From assembly GCF_036492425.1 (NCBI RefSeq), contig NZ_AP025293.1, forward strand, positions 620,001 through 684,000: 64,000 nt of DNA. Direction: 5' to 3'. How positions within the stretch are numbered: the stretch's first letter is position 1; each line of letters opens with the position of its first letter. Source of the DNA: Persicobacter psychrovividus. GTDB taxonomy: Bacteria; Bacteroidota; Bacteroidia; Cytophagales; Cyclobacteriaceae. The notes under the pieces are model-generated. The model had not been told where the DNA came from and made no database searches. It worked only from the letters and a program-made list of their open reading frames with translations. Shown here one piece after another: positions 39,468-58,563 of the stretch. Made by a program: the position numbers and the translations under genes.

Positions 39468-40913
39468 TTATTTTTGCTTACTGTCTGACATTTCCTTCGG
39501 AACAATTTCTGGCTGCATGGATTGTCCGTCCCAGCCGCCACCAAGCGCCTTGTAAAGATCCACCATAGACACCAGCTGTTCCTTGATTGCCGCAGACTCC
39601 GAGATTTCCGCTTCAAACAAACGACGCTGCGCATCAAGTACATCAAGGTAATTGACGATACCATTCAGGTACTGCAATTGTGCCAGGCGCAAGTATTCCT
39701 GCGAGGCCGTCAGTAACTCGGTTTGCGCATCACGGGTTTGGGCCGTTTTCTGGAAAGTTACCAAACCATCAGAGACCTCTTTCAGTGCCACGTTAACTGT
39801 TTGTTTATACTGATTGAGTACCTGATTGTATTGAGCCTTCTTGGCTTCCACATTTCCCTTGATTCGCCCTGCTGAGAATAAAGGTGCCGTAATATCTCCA
39901 ATGTACTCCCAGTAATTGAAACCGTTGGCCACAAAATTATTCAGGCTCGGGCTCTGATATCCAAATTTTCCAGTCAGGGTCAGGTTCGGAAAATAATCTG
40001 CCTTGGCAGCACCAATCTGAGCATTGGCCGCTACAAGCTGATCTTCCGCCTGACGAATATCAGGGCGGCGTTCCAGTAGCTCCGAAGAAAGTCCTACGGG
40101 AATTGCTGGTACCACTGGCTGATCTGAAATCGAATTGCTTCGGGCCAACTCCTGCGGAGGTCGACCAAGCAAAATGGCCAGCTCATTGGTATTGATCTTC
40201 ACCTGTCGCTCCAGCTCCGGGATCAGCGATTTGGTCTGTGCCAATTCTACCGTCGCCTGCTGATATTCAATCTCAGACACCAAACCGCCTTTAAAACGCA
40301 ATTCAGCAATACGCTGTGCTTCCTGCCGGGCAATGAGTGTTCGGCGGGTAATCCGCAAGCGGTTATCAATATCCTGCAGGCTGAAATAGGTTTTGGCAAC
40401 CTCGGCCACAAGGGAAATACTCATCGAACGATAAGCCTCGTAAGTGCCCAGGTACTCCGCATTGGCGGCCTCTACCTGTCGTCTGATTTTCCCCCAAAGG
40501 TCAAGCTCCCAGCTCAGGGTACCAATGCCACGGTACTTCTCATTGTTTTTCGTAACGCCAGTGGCGGCATTATGCCCAGCTTCCCCTTCAGCAAAGGTAT
40601 TAACCCCAATTTGAGGGAACAGCGCCGATTTGGTCGTTTTGCGGAAAGCCTGAAGTTCCTGAATTTTTGCCGCAGCAACACGCAGGTTATAGTTCTCCTT
40701 CAGTGCTTCGGAAATATAGCTCTCCAGCAGGGAATCCTGATACAGGTCCCACCACTTGATTTGCGCCACCTGATCGCCCTTTACGGCCGTAGAATCCCAG
40801 TCCACATCAACGTTTAAATCCGGACGGCTATAATTCGGTCCCATTTTACAGGCCTGAATACCTAAAATAATCAGGCACAGCAACAGACTTGATTTTATCG
40901 TTTTATGCTTCAT
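39468..40913 (-). CDS. Outer-membrane factor lipoprotein of RND efflux system 2 (TolC/OprM family)
   Basis: 481 residues; the signal peptide ends in GIQAC (lipobox), followed by KMGPNYSRPDLNVD, typical of OprM/CusC-type proteins. OEP repeats lie at ~60-260 and ~275-465, with the landmarks GTLSWELDLWGKIRRQVEAANAEY and LLERRPDIRQAEDQL. It is the outer-membrane channel for the pump encoded upstream; its ATG overlaps the pump stop (TAATG). Same length as the factor of system 1 (5160-6605), but clearly diverged. Confidence 0.92.
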   Translation of the reverse strand: MKHKTIKSSLLLCLIILGIQACKMGPNYSRPDLNVDVDWDSTAVKGDQVAQIKWWDLYQDSLLESYISEALKENYNLRVAAAKIQELQAFRKTTKSALFPQIGVNTFAEGEAGHNAATGVTKNNEKYRGIGTLSWELDLWGKIRRQVEAANAEYLGTYEAYRSMSISLVAEVAKTYFSLQDIDNRLRITRRTLIARQEAQRIAELRFKGGLVSEIEYQQATVELAQTKSLIPELERQVKINTNELAILLGRPPQELARSNSISDQPVVPAIPVGLSSELLERRPDIRQAEDQLVAANAQIGAAKADYFPNLTLTGKFGYQSPSLNNFVANGFNYWEYIGDITAPLFSAGRIKGNVEAKKAQYNQVLNQYKQTVNVALKEVSDGLVTFQKTAQTRDAQTELLTASQEYLRLAQLQYLNGIVNYLDVLDAQRRLFEAEISESAAIKEQLVSMVDLYKALGGGWDGQSMQPEIVPKEMSDSKQK

Positions 40914-43900
40914 TACTTCGACTGATTTTTATCTTTAGAAAATCGTGCACTTACCTTTTCCTGAAACTCCACAATGGTTTTGAAAAACAGCGGAATGTAA
41001 ACAATCCCTACGGTGGTCGCGAGGATCATCCCGGTAAATACACCTGTACCGATCGAGTGACGTGCTGCCGCTCCGGCGCCGGAAGCCATTACCAAAGGAA
41101 TCATTCCAAGCACAAAAGCCAGGGAGGTCATCAGGATCGGACGGAAACGCAAGGAAGCCGCCTGTAATGCCGCTTCTCCGGCGGTCAACCCTTCTTTGGT
41201 CATCTTTTCCTTGGCAAACTCTACAATCAGAATCGCATTTTTTGCCGACAGACCAATCAGGGAGATCATCCCGATCTGAAAGTAAATATCATTCTCGAGT
41301 CCACGGAACCACACCCCGAGGAAAGCCCCGAATATGGCAATAGGCAAGGTAATCAGTACGGCGATAGGAATGATCCAGCTTTCGTACTGTGCCGCCAGGA
41401 AGAGGAAGACGAAGATCACCACAATGGCAATCATCGGCCCTAATTGGCCTTCAGCTTGTTTCTCTTCATACGACATCCCACTCCACTCAAAGCCCATACC
41501 TTCCGGCAGTACTTTGGCCGCCACTTCTTCCATGGCTTTCATCGCCTGCCCAGAGGAATAACCTGGCGCGGCAGTACCGTGAATGGTGGTCGAGAGGAAC
41601 ATATTAAACCTGTTCAAACTTCCAGGCCCGGTGGTCATGCTTACTGCTCCCAGCGCACTTACCGGCACCATTGTACCATTACTTGTTCTTACAAAAAACA
41701 GGTTCAGGTCGCTCAGGTTCTTCCGGTAGGCCTGTTCCGCCATAATATTTACCCGATAAACCCGGTTAAACTTATTGAAATCATTGACATACTGCGAGCC
41801 GAGGAAGGCGTTCATGGTAGAGAACACATCCGCAATAGGTACCCCGAGAAATTTGGCGCGGTCACGATCAAGATCGAAATACAGCTGCGGAATTTTAGGC
41901 TGCATACTGGCATTCACGCCCGAAAGCTCCTTGCGTTTCGATGCCGCAGCCACAAGGGAGTCGGCAGCATCCACGAGCTTGTCGAGAGAATTTCCCGACT
42001 TGGATTGCAGCTGAAATTCAAAACCACCCCCATCACCAAGTCCAGGGATTTCCGAAGGTTTGGTGATGAACACATTGGCTTCAGGGTACTTGTAAAACTC
42101 CTTCCGCAGATCAGCAATCACATGGTCAATGCTCATGTTGTCGCCCTTACGTTCGTCCCAGGGTTTCAGGATAACCGTCAATACCCCGCGGGATTCCGTC
42201 CCACCAACACGGTGGCTCAAACCTTTAACCGTCTGAATATTGGCCACAGCAGGATTCTTCAGAATAAACTGCTGAGCACGGTTCACCACTTCCGAAGTAC
42301 GGGTCAATGAAGCGCCATCAGGCAAGGCAATTTCCACATCGAAATAGCCCTGATCCTCTCCCGGGATAAAACTCGTCGGGATAATATAAGCCAGTAATCC
42401 GGTGAAAATAATCGCCATTCCGAAGCCGGCAAACATCCGTTTTCGGTGCTCAAAACCCCAGCGCACATATTGGGTATATTTGCTGTTTCCGGCATTTACC
42501 CAATGGTCAATCTTCTTGAATATCTTGGACTGATTCCCAGATTTGGGTTTCAGCAAAATAGCACATAAGGCCGGTGAGAGTGTCAGGGCCACAACGGTTG
42601 AAAGCAATACCGATACTGCAATGGTGATCGAGAACTGTTTGAAGAGCGTTCCTGTGATTCCGCCAAGGAAACTCACCGGCACAAATACCGCCGCCAAAAC
42701 CAAGGAGGTGGTGATCAGTGCTCCGACCAGTTCGCCCATTGCCTTGTGGGTAGCCGGCCGTGCTTCGAGGCCCTCTTCTTCCATAATCCGCTCCACATTC
42801 TCGACCACCACAATGGCGTCATCCACCACTATACCAATCGCGAGGATAAGTCCAAGCAGGGTCAGGATGTTAAGGGAAAAGCCGAAGACGAGCATCACGG
42901 CAAAAGTACCAATCAAGGAAATCGGTACGGCGATCGTTGGTACCAAAGCAGAACGCCAGGATTGCAACGACAGGTAAACCACCAAAATCACCAGAATGAT
43001 GGCTTCGATCAGCGTTACATAAACTTCATCAATAGACGCAGAGATGAACTGAGTGGCATCAAAAGAGAATTTATAGTCAATCCCTTCGGGGAAGCTTTTC
43101 TTCAGTTCTTTCAGCGCCGAGCGCACGTTGTTCGCTACCTGAAGGGCATTGGCGCCTTCGAGCAGGTAGATCTCCATCATGGCGGCATTTTTCCCGTTCA
43201 GCTCCGAAGACTGTCGATAACTTGAAGCAGCCAGCTCCACCCTTGCCACATCACGGATTCGGATAAACGAGCCGTCAAGGTTGGCACGGACAATGATATT
43301 CTCAAACTCCTCTTTGGTGGACATCCGCCCACGAGCAGTAATCGGCAAAGTAACATCGATATGATCCAGCGGCTGAATCCCGAGCTCCCCTGCAGCGGAC
43401 TCCCTGTTCTGTTCTTTGATGGCATCGGAAAGGTCGCGAACGGTCAAGCCATAGGCGGCCAGACGGTCGGGCTGAATCCAGATACGCATTGAATAATAAC
43501 GGGAACCAACGTTCCAAATACCCGCAACACCGGGCACCCTTTTTAGCGGGTCAAGGACGTTGATCGTTGCAAAGTTGGAGAGGTAAATTTCATCGAACTT
43601 TGGATCGGAGGACGTTAAACTGAGGGTAAGAATTTTGGATACTGCCTGCTTTTCAACAGTGATCCCCCCTTGCATCACCTCGGCAGGCATTTTGGATTCT
43701 GCCCGCTTCACACGGTTACGCACCTCAATTGCGCTCAGATCGGCATCTGTTCCCGCCCTGAAAGTCAGCTGGATATTCAGTCCACCGGTATTGCTACTTT
43801 TTGATTTCATCGAAATCATATTCGGTGTACCGTTGAGCTGCTGTTCGAGCTCCGAAGCAATGGCATCGTTCACTACTTTGGCATTGGCGCCAGGGTAGTT

Positions 43901-44044
43901 GGTCGATACCCGCACTACTGGAGGGGTAATATCGGGGTACTGTGCCACGGGCAATTGCGTGATGGCCAGCACGCCCAGCAGTACTATCAGGATTGATATT
44001 ACTGCCGAGAAAATCGGTCGGTCAATAAAGAAAGAAGGCTTCAT
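40913..44044 (-). CDS. RND multidrug efflux pump, inner-membrane subunit 2 (AcrB/MexB, HAE1 type)
   Basis: 1043 residues with the usual 12-TM RND layout. The N-terminus KPSFFIDRPIFSAVISILIV is typical of AcrB/MexF-like pumps, and the proton-relay Asp pair lies in GIVVDDAIVVVENVERIM (~residues 408-409). The porter-domain motif RNRVKRAESKMP and C-terminal ASGAGAAARHSIGTGVFTGM fit the HAE1 family. Translation is coupled on both sides by TAATG overlaps with the adaptor and the outer-membrane factor, tighter than in system 1. It exports hydrophobic or amphiphilic compounds; the actual range is unknown. Confidence 0.95.
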   Translation of the reverse strand: MKPSFFIDRPIFSAVISILIVLLGVLAITQLPVAQYPDITPPVVRVSTNYPGANAKVVNDAIASELEQQLNGTPNMISMKSKSSNTGGLNIQLTFRAGTDADLSAIEVRNRVKRAESKMPAEVMQGGITVEKQAVSKILTLSLTSSDPKFDEIYLSNFATINVLDPLKRVPGVAGIWNVGSRYYSMRIWIQPDRLAAYGLTVRDLSDAIKEQNRESAAGELGIQPLDHIDVTLPITARGRMSTKEEFENIIVRANLDGSFIRIRDVARVELAASSYRQSSELNGKNAAMMEIYLLEGANALQVANNVRSALKELKKSFPEGIDYKFSFDATQFISASIDEVYVTLIEAIILVILVVYLSLQSWRSALVPTIAVPISLIGTFAVMLVFGFSLNILTLLGLILAIGIVVDDAIVVVENVERIMEEEGLEARPATHKAMGELVGALITTSLVLAAVFVPVSFLGGITGTLFKQFSITIAVSVLLSTVVALTLSPALCAILLKPKSGNQSKIFKKIDHWVNAGNSKYTQYVRWGFEHRKRMFAGFGMAIIFTGLLAYIIPTSFIPGEDQGYFDVEIALPDGASLTRTSEVVNRAQQFILKNPAVANIQTVKGLSHRVGGTESRGVLTVILKPWDERKGDNMSIDHVIADLRKEFYKYPEANVFITKPSEIPGLGDGGGFEFQLQSKSGNSLDKLVDAADSLVAAASKRKELSGVNASMQPKIPQLYFDLDRDRAKFLGVPIADVFSTMNAFLGSQYVNDFNKFNRVYRVNIMAEQAYRKNLSDLNLFFVRTSNGTMVPVSALGAVSMTTGPGSLNRFNMFLSTTIHGTAAPGYSSGQAMKAMEEVAAKVLPEGMGFEWSGMSYEEKQAEGQLGPMIAIVVIFVFLFLAAQYESWIIPIAVLITLPIAIFGAFLGVWFRGLENDIYFQIGMISLIGLSAKNAILIVEFAKEKMTKEGLTAGEAALQAASLRFRPILMTSLAFVLGMIPLVMASGAGAAARHSIGTGVFTGMILATTVGIVYIPLFFKTIVEFQEKVSARFSKDKNQSK

Positions 44045-45246
44045 TATTTTACTACCCCTTCCTCCGAAACTGAGTCCCGATCAAATTGTGTTTTATAATC
44101 TTCAAAGCTGCTTACTGCCACCACTTTCTTCCCTGGCATTGCTTTCTGGATTCCTTCAGAAACGAAAACTTCATTTTGCCACAAACCACGGGTGATCACC
44201 ACTTCCTGATCCAGCTCCTGTCCTGTTTCCACAAGTCGTTTTTCTACCGTTTGATCTTTGCGAAGCACATAAACATAAGCTCCTCCGTCTTCAATCACTA
44301 AAGCTTTACGGGGAACCACCACGGCGTCTTCCAACACCTGCAACAGCAAAGAAACCTTGGTAAACTGACCAGGCAAAATCACTCGCTCGGGGTTGGCCAC
44401 AAGTGCCTGCACCTCGAAAGTTCCCGTTTTAGGATTTACTTTCGGCTCCACAAAGTTCAATCGCCCTTCATAATTGTATTCGGAATTATCTGGCAGTGTA
44501 ATTTTTACTTTTGGTGTCCAGCCTCTGGTGCTGTCACTCACCTGCGCAAGCGAACTTGTCGCTTTCTTGCGCTGCGCATTCAGGTAATCAATCACCGAAA
44601 TGTTGAAGTTTACGCGTACCGGGTCAAGCTGAAGGACCGTCGCCAGCAACGAATTGCTTCCACTCCCCACCAGTGTCCCGATATCTACATTGGACTTCGA
44701 GATGTAGCCATCCAAAGGAGAGCGGATCTCAGTATATTCAAGCTCCAGCTGGGCTTGTTTCAGCTCGGCCAAATTCATCTGATATTTTGCCTGTGCCGAC
44801 TCCAGGGCCGACTGTGCATTATCAAGATCGAGCTGCGAGGCGGCATTCTGCGCATAAAGCGGCTTCAAACGCGCCACATCCCTTTTGGCTTTTTGCATTT
44901 CTACTTCCGACTGATTTAAAGCGGCCTTATTTTTATTCACATTAGCGATATAAGGTCGTTGGTCAATCAAATACAATAGGTCTCCTTTATGGACATAAGT
45001 TCCCTCGCGGAAATTCCTTTTCTCCAGGAAGCCATCTACCCTCGCGCGGATCTCCACATTCAACGAGGCTTCAATTCTTCCGACATAATCGCCGTAAATC
45101 TCAACATCACGCGTTTTCACGGTGTCCACTCCCACAACAGGGCGTGGTGGTTCTGAAACTTTTTTATCACAAGCACTAATTGCAAAAATCAGCGCCATAA
45201 AGAGGAAAAGTAAAGTCTGAGAATAAAATTGTTTTCTCATTTGCAT
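44044..45246 (-). CDS. Membrane fusion protein (periplasmic adaptor) of RND system 2
   Basis: 400 residues; the signal peptide ends in FAISAC. Lipoyl halves RARVDGFLEKRNFREGTYVHKGDLLY and SPLDGYISKSNVDIGTLVG flank a coiled-coil hairpin (~95-165), then beta-barrel and membrane-proximal domains (GRLNFVEPKVNPKTGTFEV). AcrA/MexE-like. First gene of the operon. An inverted repeat about 70 nt upstream (45312-45342) is a candidate operator. ATG 45240 is a possible alternative start. Confidence 0.93.
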   Translation of the reverse strand: MQMRKQFYSQTLLFLFMALIFAISACDKKVSEPPRPVVGVDTVKTRDVEIYGDYVGRIEASLNVEIRARVDGFLEKRNFREGTYVHKGDLLYLIDQRPYIANVNKNKAALNQSEVEMQKAKRDVARLKPLYAQNAASQLDLDNAQSALESAQAKYQMNLAELKQAQLELEYTEIRSPLDGYISKSNVDIGTLVGSGSNSLLATVLQLDPVRVNFNISVIDYLNAQRKKATSSLAQVSDSTRGWTPKVKITLPDNSEYNYEGRLNFVEPKVNPKTGTFEVQALVANPERVILPGQFTKVSLLLQVLEDAVVVPRKALVIEDGGAYVYVLRKDQTVEKRLVETGQELDQEVVITRGLWQNEVFVSEGIQKAMPGKKVVAVSSFEDYKTQFDRDSVSEEGVVK

Positions 45247-45547: not shown

Positions 45548-46183
45548 TTGCAGGCGAAAGCGAAAAATCAAAATCAGTCAATAAATCATAACTCATTGCG
45601 TCAGCAGGATCCCGATAACGAAAATCTTTTGTTGTTTCTGAAAGGAGACATTAAGGCCTATGAGACGATCTTCAGAGCCTACTACGAGCCATTGTGCCAA
45701 TTCTCCATGCGCTACCTTGCTGATCCCCAACAGTCTGAAGAGGTTGTTCAGGAGCTGTTCACCACGCTATGGGAAAAAAGAGCCTCTTTGAATATTTCAA
45801 CAAGCCTGAAAAGCTACCTCTTTGGTGCCACAAGAAATAACTGCCTTCAGCTGATCCGAAAGCAAAAAGTCCGTGATAAATATCAAAATGAAGTGGCGGC
45901 CATGCATCAAAATCAACATTTCGAGGATCTTGACGTGATGGTAGAACTGGAGTTGAGCGAAAAAATTCAGCAAATTATCGCTCAGTTACCCGACCAACGA
46001 AGAAAAATCTTTATGATGAGCAGATTTGAGGGCAAAAAGTACCAGGAGATTGCCGATGAGTTGGGGCTTTCAGTAAAAACGATCGAAAATCAGATGAGCA
46101 GCGCATTGAAAAGCCTACGGCTTGCCCTTCACGAATATTTGCCACTGCTGCTATTTATAATTTGGCAACAATACAAAAAATAA
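45548..46183 (+). CDS. ECF-type RNA polymerase sigma factor (FecI-like)
   Basis: 211 residues starting at TTG 45548; a stop lies in frame five codons upstream and there is no suitable ATG. TTG 45596 is the other option. Region 2 is FRAYYEPLCQFSMRYLADPQQSEEVVQELFTTLWEKR (~40-80) and region 4 is LPDQRRKIFMMSRFEGKKYQEIADELGLSVKTIENQMSSALKSLR (~140-190). The C-terminus ends in a hydrophobic stretch LPLLLFIIW, seen in some Bacteroidota ECFs. It should be held by the FecR-like protein encoded 74 nt downstream and released by an outer-membrane signal. Confidence 0.9.
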   Translation: MQAKAKNQNQSINHNSLRQQDPDNENLLLFLKGDIKAYETIFRAYYEPLCQFSMRYLADPQQSEEVVQELFTTLWEKRASLNISTSLKSYLFGATRNNCLQLIRKQKVRDKYQNEVAAMHQNQHFEDLDVMVELELSEKIQQIIAQLPDQRRKIFMMSRFEGKKYQEIADELGLSVKTIENQMSSALKSLRLALHEYLPLLLFIIWQQYKK

Positions 46184-46257
46184 TCCCGACCGAATAGGGG
46201 TAAATGCCTGACAAAGCAACTTAACTGTATGGAAATGACCAATCGTTTTCTAAAATC

Positions 46258-47238
46258 ATGACACAAGATACCATTGATCAATATATTGCCAAAGCACTTG
46301 GGCAAACTGCCACTGCCCAGGAACAAGCGCATTTAGACGCCTGGCGAAAAGCCGATGCCCAAAATGAAAAATACTACCGACAGTTTGAGCATTTGTGGCG
46401 ACTCGGACTTCTGGCCAAGGACAAGCCTGCTTTCCACCCTAATGTCGATCGGGCATGGCAGAATGTGCGCCCTGCAGTTCCCCTCCAGCAAAGGTCCCAA
46501 ATTCCTGCTTATGCTTTCTTCACCGCCATTGCGAGTGTACTGCTGGTGGCGATGGTATTTTTGTACCCTTATGTATTCCCCGAAAAGGTAAAGCATATTC
46601 ACCTTGTGGCTCAAAACCTGCAGGAGGTAACATTGCCCGACGGGACATCGGTTACTTTGAGAAAGGGAGCTACGCTGGAATACCCAGAAGCTTTCGGCGA
46701 AGACCAGAGAAAAGTCAATTTCAGTGGGCAGGCGTATTTCGATGTGCACCACGATCCCGATCATCAGTTCATCATCGATATGAAAGAAACGCAGGTCAGG
46801 GTGTTGGGTACCGCCTTTAATATTGATGAAGAAGCTCACCACACCGTAACGGTCAGTGTCAGCCGTGGTAAAGTGGCTTTTGAAACTAAAACAAAAAAAC
46901 CTCAGCGGGTGGTGCTCGCCAAAGGTAAGCAGGCCACTTATCAGCATCAGCAAAAAAAGATCAGTGCACTGACTGCCCAAGCACCAAATGCTTTGGCATG
47001 GAAAACGAAAATCTTCAGTTTCAATGATACCCCACTGCCGGAAGTGGTAAAAACCCTCAACGATGCCTATGGGGCAGATATCCGTTTGGAATCCCCAGAA
47101 TTATTCAACTGCTCGCTCTCGATGGTCAATCATCGATCACAAAGCATCGAATCAGTATTGGCTACGATAAGTACTATTCTTAATGTTGAGGTGAAGCAGC
47201 AAAACAATAGCTACCGAATCTTTGGAAAGTGCCAATAG
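46258..47238 (+). CDS. FecR-family anti-sigma factor
   Basis: 326 residues. A cytoplasmic N-terminus of ~85 residues (QEQAHLDAWRKADAQNEKYYRQFEHLW, the sigma-binding helix bundle), one membrane segment (PAYAFFTAIASVLLVAMVFLYPYVF, ~85-110), then the periplasmic FecR domain (EVTLPDGTSVTLRKGATLEYPEAF...VNFSGQAYFDVHHD...VLGTAFNI). A DUF4974-type C-terminus completes it (FNDTPLPEVVKTLNDAYGADIRL). The last domain is the usual contact for the STN domain of an outer-membrane protein, here encoded 2 nt downstream. Overlapping GTG frames at its end are ignored. Confidence 0.93.
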   Translation: MTQDTIDQYIAKALGQTATAQEQAHLDAWRKADAQNEKYYRQFEHLWRLGLLAKDKPAFHPNVDRAWQNVRPAVPLQQRSQIPAYAFFTAIASVLLVAMVFLYPYVFPEKVKHIHLVAQNLQEVTLPDGTSVTLRKGATLEYPEAFGEDQRKVNFSGQAYFDVHHDPDHQFIIDMKETQVRVLGTAFNIDEEAHHTVTVSVSRGKVAFETKTKKPQRVVLAKGKQATYQHQQKKISALTAQAPNALAWKTKIFSFNDTPLPEVVKTLNDAYGADIRLESPELFNCSLSMVNHRSQSIESVLATISTILNVEVKQQNNSYRIFGKCQ

Positions 47239-47240
47239 TA

Positions 47241-49235
47241 ATGAAAAGAGTTTTCTACATTAAAATGCTTTTGTTGCTGCTGTTTATGTTCGCAACTAAA
47301 GTCGCAAAATCACAAAGTTGGACACAGCAGCAAATCAGTATTCAGGCTCAGCAATTACCCTTAGCCACTTTCATCGATCAGCTGAGTAAAAAAGCAGGAT
47401 TTGATTATGCCTACAACGCCAAAATCATTTCAGCGAAAGCAGCAGTCGATTATCAAACCACTGATGCCCCACTGATCAGCGTACTCAATGAAATTCTACC
47501 GCCGAGGAATCTCGACTACAAAATACAAGGCGATCAGCTGTTGATCATTCCGAAAAAGAAAATTAAACAAAGAAAAACAAGTCTGACCCTTACCGCCACA
47601 CTAATGTATAAAGGGCAGTATCTGGATGGGGTCGCGGTGCTTGATAAGTTTACTGGAGCTTTGGGTAAAACCAATTCCGAAGGAACACTCCGAATTCCCA
47701 TCAATAATCCACAGGCGAACCTAAGCTTGACCTTCAGCAAGGAAGGCTATCAGAGCAAATCACTGAAAGTAAAAATGAATGGAGACAAAAGTATTCAGGT
47801 GTACCTGGACTCCTTGCAGCTCCCCATGAAAAAGACCTCTGCTCCTGTCGCCTTTTTACCCTCCGTTCAGCTGAAAGAAAAAGAAATTGAGGACATCAAT
47901 TTGGTGAAATTCTTTGTCTCGGAGGCAAAAACAGCACAAATAACGACCCTTGACAGCCTCATTTACAGTCCTTTTCAGGTCAGTCTGCTACCTATGCTCA
48001 GCAGTAATTTCACTAAAAATGCGCAATCGGTCAATAACTTTTCACTGAACCTGATCGCTGGTTATTCCGCAGGAACTGATGGTGCAGAAATGGGTACTGC
48101 GGCCAATATCAACAGGTATAATATGCGCGGACTGCAGCTTGCTGGCCTCACTAATATTGTCGGGGGACATGTTCACGGTTTGCAAATTGCAGGGGTAAAC
48201 AACCTCAGCAAGCGGAAAATGATCGGACTGCAAGTTGCGGGAATTAACAATGTCGCACAACACAGCATGTCGGGGGGGCAAATTGCGGGAATTAACAATG
48301 TGATGAATGGCCAGATGAATGGTTTTCAGATAAGTGCCGTATCCAATTCCCTGTTAAATCATGGACAAGGGCTACAGCTTGCCGCATTTGGGAACTTTGC
48401 CCGCCAAAACTTCAAGGGCGTTCAGTTTTCTGCGGTATTGAATAAGATCAAGGGAACATCAAGCGCCTTGCAAGTTTCAGCACTGTTGAATATTGCCAAA
48501 GACAGCCTTAAAGGAGTACAATTAAGTGCTTTCTATAATGGTGCTTACGGCCACAGCTCGGGCGTTCAAATCAGCCCATTTTTAAACCATAGCCGCGCAA
48601 CATTTAATGGCTTGCAGCTCGGTATCTTAAACCATGCCGCACAAGCACTCCATGGTGTTCAGTTGGGTGTAATAAACAGCACAGACACGCTCAGCGGGCT
48701 TCAATTAGGCATTATCAATAAAACCGACCATTTAGCAAGTGGCACACCAATAGGCTTCATTAGCGTGGTAAAAGATGGCTGCAATGCTTTGGAACTGAGT
48801 TATCAGGATCGGCATTTTATTACTGCTGCCTACAAAACAGGATCACGGTATTTTTATAATATCATTAATTATGGTATCGATGTTCAGCAGGCCGAACAGA
48901 TGTACTTTGGTTATGGATTTGGTACCGCCCCGCGTCTGTATCGCACGATCAGCCTCAACGCTGACCTTACCGCAAATTATGTACAAAACACGCCACACTG
49001 GTTCAAGGATAAGAATTTCCTCGGTCAGGCCAAAGCTCAGATCAGTTACCAGTTTGGCCGATCGCTGGGCCTGTTTGCTGGGGCAAGTTATAATGTACAG
49101 GTGATTGATCAGCAGGCGGAAAATAAAACGTTTATTCACCCCCGTACCGCCTGGACATCCCAGAATTCAGGATGGATTACCGCAGGATGGTGGAGCTTTC
49201 AGGCAGGGATAAGAATCGGCCGACTCGGAAGGTGA
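47241..49235 (+). CDS. STN-domain outer-membrane protein with LA_2272-like surface repeats
   Basis: 664 residues from ATG 47241, 2 nt after the FecR stop. Signal peptide ~1-25. Residues ~30-95 are a secretin/TonB short N-terminal (STN) domain (QQISIQAQQLPLATFIDQLSKKAGFDYAYNAKII...LNEILPPRNLDYKIQ). Residues ~110-175 form a carboxypeptidase-regulatory-like beta domain. Residues ~297-500 carry about 13 repeats of 14-16 residues of the form G-[L/V]-Q-[L/I/V]-x-[A/G]-x-x-N, as in LA_2272-type surface repeats. A C-terminal ~150 residues are beta-barrel-like, ending FQAGIRIGRLGR. No TonB-dependent receptor plug or full 22-strand barrel is visible, although the operon otherwise matches FecI-FecR-receptor systems. 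Confidence 0.8.
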   Translation: MKRVFYIKMLLLLLFMFATKVAKSQSWTQQQISIQAQQLPLATFIDQLSKKAGFDYAYNAKIISAKAAVDYQTTDAPLISVLNEILPPRNLDYKIQGDQLLIIPKKKIKQRKTSLTLTATLMYKGQYLDGVAVLDKFTGALGKTNSEGTLRIPINNPQANLSLTFSKEGYQSKSLKVKMNGDKSIQVYLDSLQLPMKKTSAPVAFLPSVQLKEKEIEDINLVKFFVSEAKTAQITTLDSLIYSPFQVSLLPMLSSNFTKNAQSVNNFSLNLIAGYSAGTDGAEMGTAANINRYNMRGLQLAGLTNIVGGHVHGLQIAGVNNLSKRKMIGLQVAGINNVAQHSMSGGQIAGINNVMNGQMNGFQISAVSNSLLNHGQGLQLAAFGNFARQNFKGVQFSAVLNKIKGTSSALQVSALLNIAKDSLKGVQLSAFYNGAYGHSSGVQISPFLNHSRATFNGLQLGILNHAAQALHGVQLGVINSTDTLSGLQLGIINKTDHLASGTPIGFISVVKDGCNALELSYQDRHFITAAYKTGSRYFYNIINYGIDVQQAEQMYFGYGFGTAPRLYRTISLNADLTANYVQNTPHWFKDKNFLGQAKAQISYQFGRSLGLFAGASYNVQVIDQQAENKTFIHPRTAWTSQNSGWITAGWWSFQAGIRIGRLGR

Positions 49236-51902: not shown

Positions 51903-54197
51903 TTAGAAAGGATAACCAATCGCGAAGTTCAGCAGCAAATTATTTCTTCGCCATGTACCACTCAATGGGTTCACCTGATTGAGCATCCATTCACTGCCAT
52001 TTCCTTTTGGAGACAGCACGGTGGTGGCAAAATCAAAACGAATCACAAAAAGTCCCTGAATATCGGCACGTAGACCGAAGCCAGCACTCATCCCTATTTG
52101 CTTGTAAAAGTGGTCGAAGGTAAATTCTCCAAAAGGAAAGCTATCCTGTTTTTCGAGTGTCCAGATATTTCCAGCATCAACAAACCATGCCCCCTTAATT
52201 ACGGAGATCATCGGGAACCTGTATTCGGCATTGAAGCCCAGCTTCAGTTCCCCACTACGATCAAGGCTCACGGAGTTGTTTTCATCTGGCCGGTAACCAC
52301 CAGGACCAATCCCCCACGATCGGAAAGAGCGGAGGTCATTGGGCCCACCACCATAAAATTGCTTTACAAAAGGCACCGATGAGGAGTTCCCGTAAGGCTG
52401 TGCTATGCCTCCGAAAGCCCGAAGAATCCATTGCCTGTCGTGGCGAAGGTTGAAATACAGCCTGAAATCGGGGGCAAATTTCACATACTGTGAATAGGGA
52501 ACATCAAAAATTTTCATTGGATTGTCGGCCTTATCAGCCCCTAATGTTCCCGTATTGAGCAGGTGCAGCAGATTGCCAGCCATCTCAAAATTCAGTGACA
52601 TATAAAACTGAATTGGTTTTTTCCGACTTTTCAGCAACTCATTATAGGTATAATTGAAGCGTGTCCCGAGGATCAGCTGATTCTGTAAACTCCGTTTAAG
52701 CCTGATATTATTATCGAGGACTTCTTCAAATTCTGGCGATGTTCTGAACTTGATAATGTAGTTGACAAACATCGGATCCCACTCAAAAAACTTCCATGCT
52801 TTCGATCTCCACTTGTAACCGTAGGAGGTTTCTGCGGAGAATAACAGCACCTGACTCTGAATACTTTTAGCTTTCAGGTTGGCGCCAATCTTTGTTTTTG
52901 GCAGAAAAGCAGACTTGGAGGCGATCGGAAAAGGCGCCCAGATTTGGGGGACTTCCAGCGAAGCATCCAATTGCAAATCATAAGAAACCGTAGAGCTGTC
53001 GGTGCCATATTGCGATTCAAAACTGAAACGCGGACGAATTTTCAGCAATTCAGCGCCACCAAAAGCATTGCGATTGATGTAATTCAGATTCAATCCAGGG
53101 CCAATAAAGTTGTTACTTTTACTGGTCCCTTCCAGCTCCAGCTGTAAGGATTTTTTATAACGAGGAGTCAGGTAGATATTGGCATCCAAAAGCATAGAAT
53201 CCTGAGGATTGGGTTCGTAGCGAATATTGACAAAACGATACGTTCCCAGGCCCATCAAACGCTGCGATGACATCACACTTGCTTCATAATTGTATGTGGT
53301 GTCAGGGCGAATCAGGATGCCTTTTTCAAGCACTTTAGGGTTCACATAGTTCTTAAAGTTCACATATTTGAAGGGACCGATTTGTTGCGCACCCTCCCGA
53401 TTTACGGAATCTTTGGCATTGTGATAATCATAGATATAAACATTGCTGATTCGGTACTTCTTATAGGCGTAATCAGGAATGTTCTGACTCAGTTCAAAAT
53501 CGAGATCCATCACCTTATTTTCACGGAGTGTATCGGCAACATAATGGATATACTCCGGAGAAAAGTAATAGAAACCACGGTTTTTAAGCGAATCTGCCAA
53601 GCGAGAACGTTCCAGTTCGAGGTCCTCATAATGATAAACCTTGGCGCTGTCAACGGCTGTTCGCCCAGCAATAGGACGCAGTAAACTGTGCTTTATTTCC
53701 TGGTCGGCACTTAGCCTTTCGATCTTCCCCAAGCGTGTCGCTTTGCCCAGCTGAATCGAATACTTAACGGTGGTCGTTTTCTTTTTGACCACAGAATCCC
53801 TGCTTACCGTATGGTTGAAAAAGCCTCGATCCTGCAATTGATAATTGATTTTTTTATCAATAATCGCCCAGTCGATGTCACTCACGTAAACTGGTTTTTC
53901 GCCCAGCCGGTATTTAAGAAAGTACTTTAACCCTTTCTCTTTCTTGGGTTCCTTGACAATATAATGCAGCCAAAGTGCGGGCCGCGAGATCCCGAATTTA
54001 GTGTTCGGCTCCAGTGGTACAAGCCCCTGTAAAATCCCTTCAAGATCTTTATCTGAATCCGCACGATTCTTGAAATGGATGTCAAAATCTGTCGATTCAT
54101 ACAGCTTCTGCCCTTTCGGAACATACTTCAAACCTGAACAGGCGGAGAAGAAGAACAGCGCGATAATTGCCGTGAGTCCTATATTACTTCTGATCAT
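51903..54197 (-). CDS. tamA: TamA-like outer-membrane assembly protein, lipoprotein type (BamA/Omp85 family)
   Basis: 764 residues from ATG 54197, overlapping the tamB stop by 14 nt. The signal peptide ends in FFSAC, so the N-terminus is probably lipidated, as in the Bacteroidota TamL group. Three POTRA-like domains cover ~30-360 (SDIDWAIIDKKINYQLQDRGFF...). A 16-strand Omp85 barrel follows, with the L6-loop motif as YGGGPNDLRSFRSWGIGPGGY in place of the common VRGF, and the C-terminal LLNFAIGYPF with terminal Phe as insertion signal. With TamB it should help insert outer-membrane or surface proteins. Confidence 0.88.
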   Translation of the reverse strand: MIRSNIGLTAIIALFFFSACSGLKYVPKGQKLYESTDFDIHFKNRADSDKDLEGILQGLVPLEPNTKFGISRPALWLHYIVKEPKKEKGLKYFLKYRLGEKPVYVSDIDWAIIDKKINYQLQDRGFFNHTVSRDSVVKKKTTTVKYSIQLGKATRLGKIERLSADQEIKHSLLRPIAGRTAVDSAKVYHYEDLELERSRLADSLKNRGFYYFSPEYIHYVADTLRENKVMDLDFELSQNIPDYAYKKYRISNVYIYDYHNAKDSVNREGAQQIGPFKYVNFKNYVNPKVLEKGILIRPDTTYNYEASVMSSQRLMGLGTYRFVNIRYEPNPQDSMLLDANIYLTPRYKKSLQLELEGTSKSNNFIGPGLNLNYINRNAFGGAELLKIRPRFSFESQYGTDSSTVSYDLQLDASLEVPQIWAPFPIASKSAFLPKTKIGANLKAKSIQSQVLLFSAETSYGYKWRSKAWKFFEWDPMFVNYIIKFRTSPEFEEVLDNNIRLKRSLQNQLILGTRFNYTYNELLKSRKKPIQFYMSLNFEMAGNLLHLLNTGTLGADKADNPMKIFDVPYSQYVKFAPDFRLYFNLRHDRQWILRAFGGIAQPYGNSSSVPFVKQFYGGGPNDLRSFRSWGIGPGGYRPDENNSVSLDRSGELKLGFNAEYRFPMISVIKGAWFVDAGNIWTLEKQDSFPFGEFTFDHFYKQIGMSAGFGLRADIQGLFVIRFDFATTVLSPKGNGSEWMLNQVNPLSGTWRRNNLLLNFAIGYPF

Positions 54198-57100
54198 TTT
54201 TCTTCTCTTTATCGTTATCCTTACCAAATAATTTCAGCACGCCATTATAGTCTTTAGAAAAGACGATCGACAAGCCCTGCGTTAATAGATCCTGCGTCAG
54301 CAAATCATCATTATCCCGATACCTAAAGCCCCGCAAACGGTACCTTCCGTCCTGTGTCAGCATATACTCTATTTCAATGTCTTCGTTGATCTGTGAGCTC
54401 CCAGATTGCTGTTCATTATCGAGTGTCATGTTTCCTCCTACCGATACTTGCAAACGATCATTATACAAGGATTTGGAAACATTCAGCCCCACTTCCGTAG
54501 CACTCGACGCTAAATCATCGCCATAATTATCGATCGCAAAATTAATATCGACCCCTTTCACCAGGTTATTTGAAAGCCTGTTCAGCGAACTTTCCACCAG
54601 TTGCGACACACTCGAACGGGCAACGTTCTCCATCACATTACCACCACCTGAAGCGTTTTCATCAGGCAGAAAACTATTGGTGATCAGGACCGCTACCGCC
54701 TGTTTGTTTCTCAGCACTTCATCTCTGTTGATTTCCGTAATGCGGGCATAAACATCGCCACTGAAAATCCCCTGATCGCGCTCAGGCATCCCAAGGGAAA
54801 AACTGATTTTTGGGTCTGCTATCTGATTCCCAATATTGATATCAATGTAAAAATTCTGTTTCTTCTTCAGCGCTTTCTCCTGCCCTGCGGCACCAAGATC
54901 AATACGCTGCACCATGATGGGGTACGGCGCCGTGCTGATATTATACCGTGCTGTCAGGTCAAGTAAACCACTCTCGGGCGTCCCTGTAAAAGTGATCCGC
55001 GATCCTTTCACAAAATCGAAGCGTTTCTTCACCAGACCATAAAAAGACAACTGATAGAAGCCTGATTCCACCTCAAAATTACCATTCAGTCCCGTGGTTC
55101 CATTCGGGAGATAATTTAAAGAAAGGTCCGATCTACCTGAGATTTCCAGCCGATCACCAGAGTATTCGTCCACCAAAACGGTAAACTTCGCCTTGGGATC
55201 GATGCCGATACTCATATGAACTTCGGGCCCGAGGAAGCCCATATCGAGGGAATCTTCCACCGCCTCCGTGAGCATTTGCTCAAGCTCCTCATCGGGTTTA
55301 ACAAAGCGGATCACCTTATCGTGTCCACTCGGTGCCCCCTGACTTTCGGGCGTCCTGACGAACAAATCTGTTTTATCAAGCACGTTGAATTCGCCTTCAA
55401 TTTTCGGTTCAAAAGCAGAGCCTTGAATACTGAGGTCCGTGGAAATATTCAGCTGACCAAACGCTTGTGCTTGTTTGGTTTTTGGGGCATCGAGTGCCAA
55501 AAACGGATCCGCCTCAATCTTCAAATCCATTGGGTAATTATCCGTCAGTCCAATGTCCCCCTTCAATTCAAGGCGCTTACCGTTATGATCTGTCAGTCCA
55601 AAATGCTTAAAAATGACGGCACTTTTAGTCAATTTAACCGACTCATTTTTCAGTAGCAGGTCCATCGGGTATTCTTTCAATCGCGTAAACACATCAATAA
55701 AATTCAGTGCTCCATCCACAATCGGCTTTTCATTTTTATACTCAAAATCCACCTTCCCCTGAATAATTCCTGACAGTGAATCAAGGGTCGATTTCATCAT
55801 CGGTTGATAGGTGTGAAGATCCACCGTATCCAGATCAATAAACCCTTTGGCATATAACGGTGATTTATTCAGATCGATATGCGCCTCTCCCTTGAGTCGT
55901 TGCTTCCCTTTGATCAACAGTTTGGCATCATAAATTTCAGGCTTTTGGGAGATCACATCTAAAAAGATATTGCCAATAAGCATCTTATTGTACTGCAGAT
56001 TTTCAAAAGCAAAGCCGGCTTTCTTATCATCAACTTTCAGTAAATCGCGGTAACAATCAAAACCCGTTTTTATGGTGTCGTTATTATACCTGACATTAAT
56101 TTTACTGACCAGTGAATCGGCAAAAATCTGTCCGTCCCACAAGGTTTGAACCCGCGAGCCGTCGGCAAGAAAAGCACTGTCAAGCTGTACCTTGAAACCA
56201 AGCTCCTTGGATTCCCGCTCTGTGGAATCATTGAGGATCGCACCATTGAATCCATAAACCTGCAGGCTGTCCATTTTCAGTTCAGGCATATCAATCTTCA
56301 GGTTAAACTTACTTTGCCTGTCGTCCCAAACAAATAACAATCCACCACGCTCCAAATTCAGCAAACCAGGTATAAGTCCCGAGGTGTAGAGGTCGTGCTT
56401 TTTCCAGTTTACCTTCAGTGAAATCCACGGGATAATATTTCGATCCCTCGCTTTATCGAGCGTCCCTGTGGCGAGGGTTTTAAAATAATTTTGCCATTTA
56501 TCGGGATCAACCACCCCCTCCATATGCAAATCAAGTGGATCACCAGAAACATCCGTATGCACAGAATCCCCATCATAATAAGCCTGAATGCTGAGGTGAT
56601 CGAAGCCAGTATCAACCGTCTTTTGCTGAATGCTGAGGTCGTCAATATTGCCATCGACATTGATTTTTTCACCAACCATCTTGGCCTTTCCATCAGAATT
56701 AAAACCGAGTTTAAACATCTGATCCATGACGCCAAAATTGGACAGATCAAGAGGGTCCAAATGTATTTTCCATTGCACATCAATTTGGTCGCCATAGTGG
56801 CCGTCGGCTTTCACCATCAAGGGAAGATCACTCAGCTCACTATCAATATTAATCTCAAAGATGCCATCTTTCCACTGCCCATTTCCTTCAATTCCTCGGT
56901 AGGATTTCTGAAGATAATCAAAGCCGAAATGTTCAATGGTAAATGCGGTAGTCAATTGCGGAAATTCAGTGCCTTGCCCGTGGGCAGTTATATGTCCGTT
57001 AAGGTGGTCAGGCACCTGCTCACCAACGATACGCTGCACGCGAAAATCATCAAACTTGAGATCAGCATCATACTTCAAGCGGGGCAAATCATCAATATTA

Positions 57101-58563
57101 AGCAAGTCGGCCACAAGGCTCATCTTTCCCCAGTCGGAATTGACCTGCCCGTTCACCGAAACTCCATGCTCATCAAGCCAACCGTGCGTAGCAATATAAA
57201 TTGAGTCTGGATGTGGATTGGCATTCCACTCCTGCTCCGTCATCAGCCAGGTTGCCTCCTTAAAGTGCGATTTCACGAGCAGGCTATCCATGTACAGGCG
57301 AGGCGCTCCATTGTGTGTCTTGAATGCGCCGTTGAGCGTCAGCTGACTCTCCCGCGAAGTATTCAGCTGAAGAAATATTTTCCCCTTTCCGCCTTTGATA
57401 TCAGACGTCCCATACCCTTGAATATAATCTTCAGGAGTCAGTCGCAAGCCCGCCGTTTTTGCGCCCCAATAATTGATGTCATGCGCCCCGAGGTAGAAGT
57501 CCTCGAGCTTCAGGTCAAATATATTCTGCGCCAGCTTTCCTCGCTCCACTCCTTTATATCGAAGGTGTGCATCAAGGTCCATTTTCGAGTCGTCGGATCG
57601 AAAGGCCAGCGCAATTAAATATAAGTCCTCGCCTTTCATCCGCAGTCGGGAGCTCAGCTTTTTCATATGAAAGCCATTGTGCTCATAAAATGACAAACCA
57701 TTTAGCTTGGCATACATTTCCTCGCTTCGGTATCCAATGCTGTCCACCGATAATTCCAGTTGCTGAATACCAATATTGTCAGGATCGAATACGGTTCCCT
57801 TTCTCAGGTTTCCCCGATGCGTGGCATAAGTAATCATATGCCTTTTCAGGCCGAGGTGCCCAAGATAAAACTGCAAGCGAGAGGGCGAATCAGTGTTGGT
57901 GCTATCTGTTGGTTCAGGTGCCTGCGCCACCGAGTCGGAAGGGATCATCACCACATGCGCATTCAGTGAATCAGAATCAACGGAGGCAATGCGGTAAATC
58001 TCATCCGCCAAATTAACCTTCACCGCCTTAACCTGCCCCTCGTGCCAATAAGCATTCACCGCAGTGGTGCTGTCTTCAAAATCAAGCCACAAACGGCTAA
58101 ACGCAATATCGTCGAGTGCCAGCCTGAGCGTGCTCGCGGTCGTATCTACTGGTGCATTGGGATCTTCCACAACACCAAAAGCATCCATCAGGTACTGATA
58201 GTTCGGTTGCTCCTTGCTCATGTCCACATGCGCAATGACCGAATCGAGCCGAATCTTTTCTATGGTTTTTTCGCTTTGAACAAGCCCAGAGAAATCCCAG
58301 GCAACCTGCAGTTCCCCTACATAAGCAAGGGTGTCTTTTTGTGGATCCTGCAAGAGCAGCTCATCAATGGTCAGACCAGAAAGTGGGCTGAAGCTGACCT
58401 TCCCCACCCGACTGTGCGCCCCAGTGGTTTGATCGATATGCGTGGTGATTTGTTGGACAATCGCAGTTTGCACTGCGGGAACAAATAATACCACGCCAGA
58501 AAAAAGAAGCACCAACAGCAATACTAAAAGTACGCCGAGGCCGATATATTTCAGAATTTTCAA
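54184..58563 (-). CDS. tamB: TamB-like translocation/assembly module protein (AsmA/YhdP-type bridge)
   Basis: 1459 residues starting at TTG 58563; the codons directly upstream include an in-frame TGA and no ATG fits, so the TTG is the likely true start. One N-terminal membrane anchor (ILKYIGLGVLLVLLLVLLFSGVVLF) precedes >1300 residues of repeated beta strands forming the groove-like periplasm-spanning rod. The C-terminal TamB/DUF490 domain (~1050-1440) has FDFVKGSRITFTGTPESGLLDLTARYNI and LLTQGLSIVFSKDYNGVLKLFG. The role is export or assembly of envelope proteins or phospholipid transport. Operon with tamA (overlap). Length is typical. Confidence 0.9.
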   Translation of the reverse strand: MKILKYIGLGVLLVLLLVLLFSGVVLFVPAVQTAIVQQITTHIDQTTGAHSRVGKVSFSPLSGLTIDELLLQDPQKDTLAYVGELQVAWDFSGLVQSEKTIEKIRLDSVIAHVDMSKEQPNYQYLMDAFGVVEDPNAPVDTTASTLRLALDDIAFSRLWLDFEDSTTAVNAYWHEGQVKAVKVNLADEIYRIASVDSDSLNAHVVMIPSDSVAQAPEPTDSTNTDSPSRLQFYLGHLGLKRHMITYATHRGNLRKGTVFDPDNIGIQQLELSVDSIGYRSEEMYAKLNGLSFYEHNGFHMKKLSSRLRMKGEDLYLIALAFRSDDSKMDLDAHLRYKGVERGKLAQNIFDLKLEDFYLGAHDINYWGAKTAGLRLTPEDYIQGYGTSDIKGGKGKIFLQLNTSRESQLTLNGAFKTHNGAPRLYMDSLLVKSHFKEATWLMTEQEWNANPHPDSIYIATHGWLDEHGVSVNGQVNSDWGKMSLVADLLNIDDLPRLKYDADLKFDDFRVQRIVGEQVPDHLNGHITAHGQGTEFPQLTTAFTIEHFGFDYLQKSYRGIEGNGQWKDGIFEINIDSELSDLPLMVKADGHYGDQIDVQWKIHLDPLDLSNFGVMDQMFKLGFNSDGKAKMVGEKINVDGNIDDLSIQQKTVDTGFDHLSIQAYYDGDSVHTDVSGDPLDLHMEGVVDPDKWQNYFKTLATGTLDKARDRNIIPWISLKVNWKKHDLYTSGLIPGLLNLERGGLLFVWDDRQSKFNLKIDMPELKMDSLQVYGFNGAILNDSTERESKELGFKVQLDSAFLADGSRVQTLWDGQIFADSLVSKINVRYNNDTIKTGFDCYRDLLKVDDKKAGFAFENLQYNKMLIGNIFLDVISQKPEIYDAKLLIKGKQRLKGEAHIDLNKSPLYAKGFIDLDTVDLHTYQPMMKSTLDSLSGIIQGKVDFEYKNEKPIVDGALNFIDVFTRLKEYPMDLLLKNESVKLTKSAVIFKHFGLTDHNGKRLELKGDIGLTDNYPMDLKIEADPFLALDAPKTKQAQAFGQLNISTDLSIQGSAFEPKIEGEFNVLDKTDLFVRTPESQGAPSGHDKVIRFVKPDEELEQMLTEAVEDSLDMGFLGPEVHMSIGIDPKAKFTVLVDEYSGDRLEISGRSDLSLNYLPNGTTGLNGNFEVESGFYQLSFYGLVKKRFDFVKGSRITFTGTPESGLLDLTARYNISTAPYPIMVQRIDLGAAGQEKALKKKQNFYIDINIGNQIADPKISFSLGMPERDQGIFSGDVYARITEINRDEVLRNKQAVAVLITNSFLPDENASGGGNVMENVARSSVSQLVESSLNRLSNNLVKGVDINFAIDNYGDDLASSATEVGLNVSKSLYNDRLQVSVGGNMTLDNEQQSGSSQINEDIEIEYMLTQDGRYRLRGFRYRDNDDLLTQDLLTQGLSIVFSKDYNGVLKLFGKDNDKEKKNDQK

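Follow-up and report, generated by a model that had tools for sequence, protein, structure and literature searches.

Which protein carries a signal to a FecI-FecR pair when the gene in the receptor's place does not encode a TonB-dependent receptor? The question is raised by three genes lying in a row on the plus strand at positions 45548-49235 of a 64,000-nucleotide stretch (the window) of the 6.1 Mb Persicobacter genome. They encode a sigma factor, a FecR-like anti-sigma factor and a protein in which an STN domain is joined to repeats of the LA_2272 family (STN-LA_2272 protein).

The trio and the make-up of its third protein

The first gene (45548-46183, 211 aa) encodes an ECF sigma factor of the FecI-like Bacteroidota subfamily, with Sigma70_r2 and r4_2 regions and a score of 176.9 bits against TIGR02985 'Sig70_bacteroi1' (cut-off 126.4). 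The second (46258-47238, 326 aa) encodes a FecR-like anti-sigma factor that lies above the cut-offs for both PF04773 FecR and PF16344 FecR_C and falls in a FecR clade of the tree described below. Hydropathy gives it a single transmembrane helix at residues 84-102, and its C-terminal domain (FecR_C) is STN-like. The pair of FecI-type ECF sigma factor and FecR known from cell-surface signalling is present, as had been recognized in the sequence-only reading. About 300 nt upstream of the sigma gene, an apparent RND efflux operon (39468-45246) is transcribed away from it, while 51903-58563 on the minus strand holds two large genes which, from a look at their sequences, resemble a BamA/TamA-type outer-membrane assembly protein and a TamB-like partner.

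The third open reading frame starts with ATG at 47241, 2 nt past the FecR stop, and ends at 49235. Its 664-residue product, a predicted outer-membrane protein, was parsed by means of Pfam, NCBIfam and a structural model. A signal peptide (about residues 1-25, 47241-47315), with a hydrophobic helix at residues 4-22, is followed by an STN signalling domain (residues 31-104, 47331-47552) and a carboxypeptidase-regulatory-like, transthyretin-like domain (residues 115-188, 47583-47804). A linker leads from the latter to the tandem repeats. Both Pfam matches lie slightly below the cut-offs, with STN at 24.1 bits against 28.4 (E = 3.1e-5) and CarbopepD_reg_2 (PF13715) at 23.4 bits against 32.2 (E = 6.1e-5). 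Nevertheless, the STN domain of one homologue passes the cut-off with 31.0 bits, the model contains the domain, and the family profile matches PupA, the pseudobactin receptor, in its STN signalling domain (2a02), the N0 domains of PilQ and the C-terminal part of a putative anti-sigma factor of known structure, all with weak E-values of 0.004-0.07. The carboxypeptidase-like domain resembles 5aq0 with a TM-score to the target of 0.79 in Foldseek. An N-terminal STN domain on the outer-membrane partner is therefore backed by homologue, model and PupA/PilQ matches in addition to the weak Pfam match, and the earlier description of this protein and its two N-terminal domains is borne out.

The repeats are placed in the LA_2272_repeat family (NF047436) by a score of 61.8 bits, the cut-off being 25. 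About 13 tandem units of 16 residues with the pattern GxQxxGxxN were found, in which G3, Q5, G8 and N11 are almost invariant, though partly by construction because the units were selected by G, Q, G/A and N. A full-length AlphaFold2 model built with 30 homologues has a mean pLDDT of 87.6, reaching 95-98 across almost all repeats. Each rung consists of a strand of 7-8 residues, a corner, a strand of 4 and another corner, with N11 at a corner. Modelled alone, the repeats retain this pattern (pLDDT 96.4, pTM 0.86), and beta-solenoids (tapirin, LpxD, GlmU and a beta-helical antifreeze protein) make up most of their top Foldseek matches, none of which is significant (best E 0.046). The repeats at residues 263-462 (48027-48626) are thus predicted by the models to be a beta-solenoid and not a piece of a 22-strand barrel.

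The region behind them (residues 463-662, 48627-49226) forms 10-12 long strands in the model and is predicted to be a membrane beta-barrel. Foldseek matched the full model to small outer-membrane barrels, both designed and natural, and to PilQ N0 and transthyretin-like domains, and its best viral match was an autotransporter-domain protein. In most homologues the C-terminal residue is aromatic or leucine and follows a glycine-rich strand, as in outer-membrane barrels. Taken together, the model, the Foldseek matches and these C-termini speak for a solenoid attached to a small barrel. The first barrel strand of the model could be formed by residues 241-250. The solenoid, flanked by the periplasmic STN domain on one side and the barrel on the other, may form a rod inside the periplasm rather than being exposed on the cell surface. 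Of the earlier observation of about 13 repeats and a barrel-like C-terminus, both parts are real and the units measure 16 residues, while the repeats themselves are predicted as solenoid and not as barrel.

Plug and TonB-receptor barrel models gave no match in the 664-residue protein, in agreement with what had been noticed from the sequence. Structure prediction of this protein alone, named beforehand as the check that could overturn the sequence-only reading, yielded neither a 22-strand barrel nor a plug. A degenerate TonB receptor was considered as well and ruled out by the unmatched plug and barrel models and the solenoid prediction for the repeats.

Conservation of gene order and a separate FecR lineage

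A scan with the single protein returned one near-identical Persicobacter record (an uncultured Persicobacter sp., 99% identity over the third protein) and one Parabacteroides receptor locus. Homologues were found in 41 of 59 relatives, a count that takes in receptors whose match is limited to STN, and across the phylum the profile matched in 170 of 395 genomes, many of these matches being receptors or repeat-only proteins. The phylum sample also contains, in further Bacteroidota families, stand-alone LA_2272 repeat proteins with neither STN nor a nearby sigma gene (L137-L141). Gene order was analysed in 44 loci from many Bacteroidota families, which were chosen by the presence of STN plus repeats, so that the position of FecR played no part in the choice. 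FecR lies directly upstream of the STN-LA_2272 gene in 42 of them, and in 38 the sigma gene precedes FecR as well. The trio is conserved across many families; a lack of such conservation in relatives had been named beforehand as grounds against the sequence-only reading. The proposal that an STN protein other than a TonB-dependent receptor takes the receptor's place gains from this constancy.

In a tree of 70 FecR proteins, a branch with support 97/92 separates the 42 LA_2272 partners, together with one long-branch outsider, from the remaining FecRs, which come mostly from receptor-type loci. One genome (G133) has a FecR of the LA_2272-partner type as its only FecR. None of the other three FecR loci in the window's own genome contains LA_2272 repeats, and in two of these loci a receptor-size gene directly follows FecR. 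That the third gene encodes an ordinary surface protein, co-transcribed by chance and with no role in signalling, would fit the weak STN score in the window protein; the presence of the domain at all, the strict adjacency to FecR and the related lineage formed by the FecR partners make this reading highly improbable.

A promoter-like element and the candidate regulon

Upstream of the relatives' sigma genes, the strongest enriched word was TAGGGGTA, present in 14 of 38 cases against 0.2 expected and followed at fixed spacing by TTGTCNTA. The combined element, TAGGGGT-N14-[TCG]TGTC, precedes 13 of 41 sigma genes, 8 of 13 genes for an STN-less LA_2272 (solenoid-barrel) paralogue and 5 of 17 genes for a TonB-receptor-like protein, against 2 of 344 other genes of the loci (p = 4e-20). 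Both of these controls adjoin the system, one being a DUF2807 gene beside sigma and the other a gene between paralogue and receptor. The element also stands before FecR in 6 loci. An exact genome-wide search in 9 relatives gave 19 sites, most of them in trio-type loci, compared with 4 for the reversed pattern. Two of the distant sites precede DUF2807 or DUF4097 lipoprotein genes, and the remaining ones look like chance. DUF2807 (head GIN) lipoprotein genes were also seen in or near the operons of six loci (L046, L122, L123, L124, L135 and L166), directly after the element in L046 and L166, and a DUF5686 gene adjoins the trio in L066.

In the window, a putative FecR-STN promoter, TAGGGGTAAAT-N10-GCAAC, lies in the gap between sigma and FecR (46195-46220, plus strand), 63 nt before FecR. 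Its spacing is that of the relatives' TAGGGGTA-N13-TTGTC, with a diverged -10 half. Without mismatch, the pattern TAGGGGTAAAT-N10-RCAWC is present exactly three times in the genome, in each case 62-77 nt ahead of a gene: FecR (window 46195), the paralogue (C2:1008315) and a receptor-like gene (C1:1269336). Since the -10 half was read off these three sites, the independent test is the half-site alone. The half-site TAGGGGTAAA occurs 20 times in 6.1 Mb, three times before genes named in advance; the word as such shows no enrichment, given 29 occurrences of the reversed control. Two more of its sites precede a CarbopepD-DUF5686 gene (89 nt before it, at C1:1076127) and a receptor-like gene. When the relatives' pattern was searched in this genome with 2 mismatches, no enrichment was found (10 sites against 23 for the control), and the diverged -10 came to light through the half-site alone. 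It is probable from these sequence comparisons that TAGGGGT-N14-TTGTC marks a regulon of sigma/FecR genes, the STN-less solenoid-barrel paralogue and the STN-less receptor-like family. This probable regulon, as delimited by the element, is the new part of the present analysis.

The paralogue lies within three genes of the trio in 13 of 44 loci, and the receptor-like gene in 17, on the same strand in 16 of these. No Pfam match to STN was found in the members tested of this receptor-like family of about 785 residues. Because the receptor-like gene is adjacent in these 17 loci and shares the promoter element, in the window's own genome too, the sensor and the transporter appear to be separate proteins. 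The linked receptor suggests that uptake belongs to the output, and the earlier wording that the system senses without import was too strong. One could argue instead that the receptor of about 785 residues is the true sensor, acting through or beside an accessory STN-LA_2272 protein. The linkage and the common element would suit such an arrangement, but 27 of the 44 loci, the window included, have no receptor-like gene near the trio and the tested receptors are without a Pfam match to STN, which renders it unlikely.

In a relative (G044), a sigma gene overlaps the gene for a one-piece protein with the layout of Dma, the dual membrane-spanning anti-sigma factors (L062:4634-7190). The protein combines a transmembrane helix (residues 62-80) with a long polar linker and seven LA_2272 repeats, and has F as its last residue; a search of Pfam and NCBIfam recognized no anti-sigma domain in it. 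In Dma proteins a tether connects the anti-sigma factor to an outer-membrane barrel, and they function in vesiculation and under toxin stress (PMC13088901, PMC9308784). By analogy, the barrel and solenoid might report the assembly or damage of the outer membrane rather than a ligand, and the regulon would then remodel the surface. The one-piece protein and the surface or envelope products of apparent regulon genes (DUF2807/DUF4097 lipoproteins, DUF5686) speak for such an envelope-state sensor, while the 17 adjacent receptor-like genes with their common promoter favour uptake and the one-piece protein lacks a recognized anti-sigma domain. We regard it as a tentative alternative, our confidence in which overlaps with that in the preferred reading because the relay is common to both and they differ on the signal.

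The proposed relay and its relation to known systems

Our preferred reading, to which we assign a probability of roughly 0.7, is FecI-FecR cell-surface signalling in which the transducer is the solenoid-plus-barrel LA_2272 protein, not a TonB-dependent receptor, and sensing is split from uptake. The domain make-up, the conserved gene order, the separate FecR lineage and the common promoter-like element are established at the level of sequence. The barrel would anchor the STN-LA_2272 protein in the outer membrane, leaving its STN domain on the periplasmic side to pair with the STN-like C-terminus of FecR. Such contact with FecR_C is most likely by analogy with FoxA/FoxR, in which both domains are STN-like and their contact shields the anti-sigma factor from proteolysis (PMC11637429). 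A change in the barrel or solenoid, caused by a ligand, a partner protein or the membrane state, would alter the contact and lead to FecR processing and release of the sigma factor. The freed sigma factor would then drive transcription of FecR-STN, in relatives also of its own gene, as well as of the STN-less paralogue and the separate STN-less TonB-receptor-like protein. It seems reasonably probable that this is an old, distinct Bacteroidota branch, in which an LA_2272 solenoid-barrel sensor drives FecI/FecR and, through the dedicated promoter TAGGGGT-N14-TTGTC, a matching LA_2272 protein and a receptor, both of them STN-less.

If this is true, an outer-membrane protein with no relation to TonB receptors is able to drive a FecI-FecR relay, and the system connects classic surface signalling with the Dma anti-sigma factors. 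The promoter element together with a short list of targets (paralogue, receptor, DUF2807/DUF4097 lipoproteins) makes the signal testable. Moreover, it suggests a look at bacteria that possess FecI/FecR and lack a receptor bearing STN. The LA_2272 family is named from Leptospira. This genus possesses a FecI/FecR-like pair, reportedly lacks a receptor bearing the N-terminal extension (PMC12155086), and is a lead for the same arrangement of FecI/FecR with LA_2272. The papers located on LA_2272 proteins report localisation and vaccine surveys. No description of the present arrangement was found in the literature covered, which took in few subscription journals or preprints and none of the published ECF classifications. 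The family model NF047436, whose repeat is matched above cut-off here, covers the repeat only and is silent on STN and signalling.

With FecI-FecR-FecA and FoxI-FoxR-FoxA the trio shares the FecI-type sigma factor, a FecR with an STN-like C-terminus and the N-terminal STN domain on the outer-membrane partner; the promoter-like element before FecR-STN or the sigma operon would fit autoregulation as well. In FecA, sensing and uptake are joined in one protein. Unlike FecA and FoxA, the partner in the trio is no TonB-dependent receptor but a beta-solenoid with a small barrel, lacking plug and 22-strand barrel, and the receptor-like protein is encoded separately and without STN. PUMA3 of Pseudomonas aeruginosa (VreA-VreI-VreR) likewise pairs FecI/FecR proteins with an STN-bearing partner that is not a TonB receptor (PMC2729926). 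VreA, however, is a 23 kDa protein with no barrel and a TolA/TonB-like second, C-terminal domain (PMC2729926), where the window protein has solenoid and barrel. The Dma proteins with their ECF21 sigma factors (PMC13088901) and the pair of PMC9308784 also couple a non-TonB outer-membrane barrel to an anti-sigma factor. In Dma, the anti-sigma domain, transmembrane helix, disordered tether and barrel reside in one protein, whereas the window has two separate genes and a FecI-like sigma factor, and the link would be made between two proteins via their STN domains. VreA and the Dma proteins are the nearest precedents for the trio.
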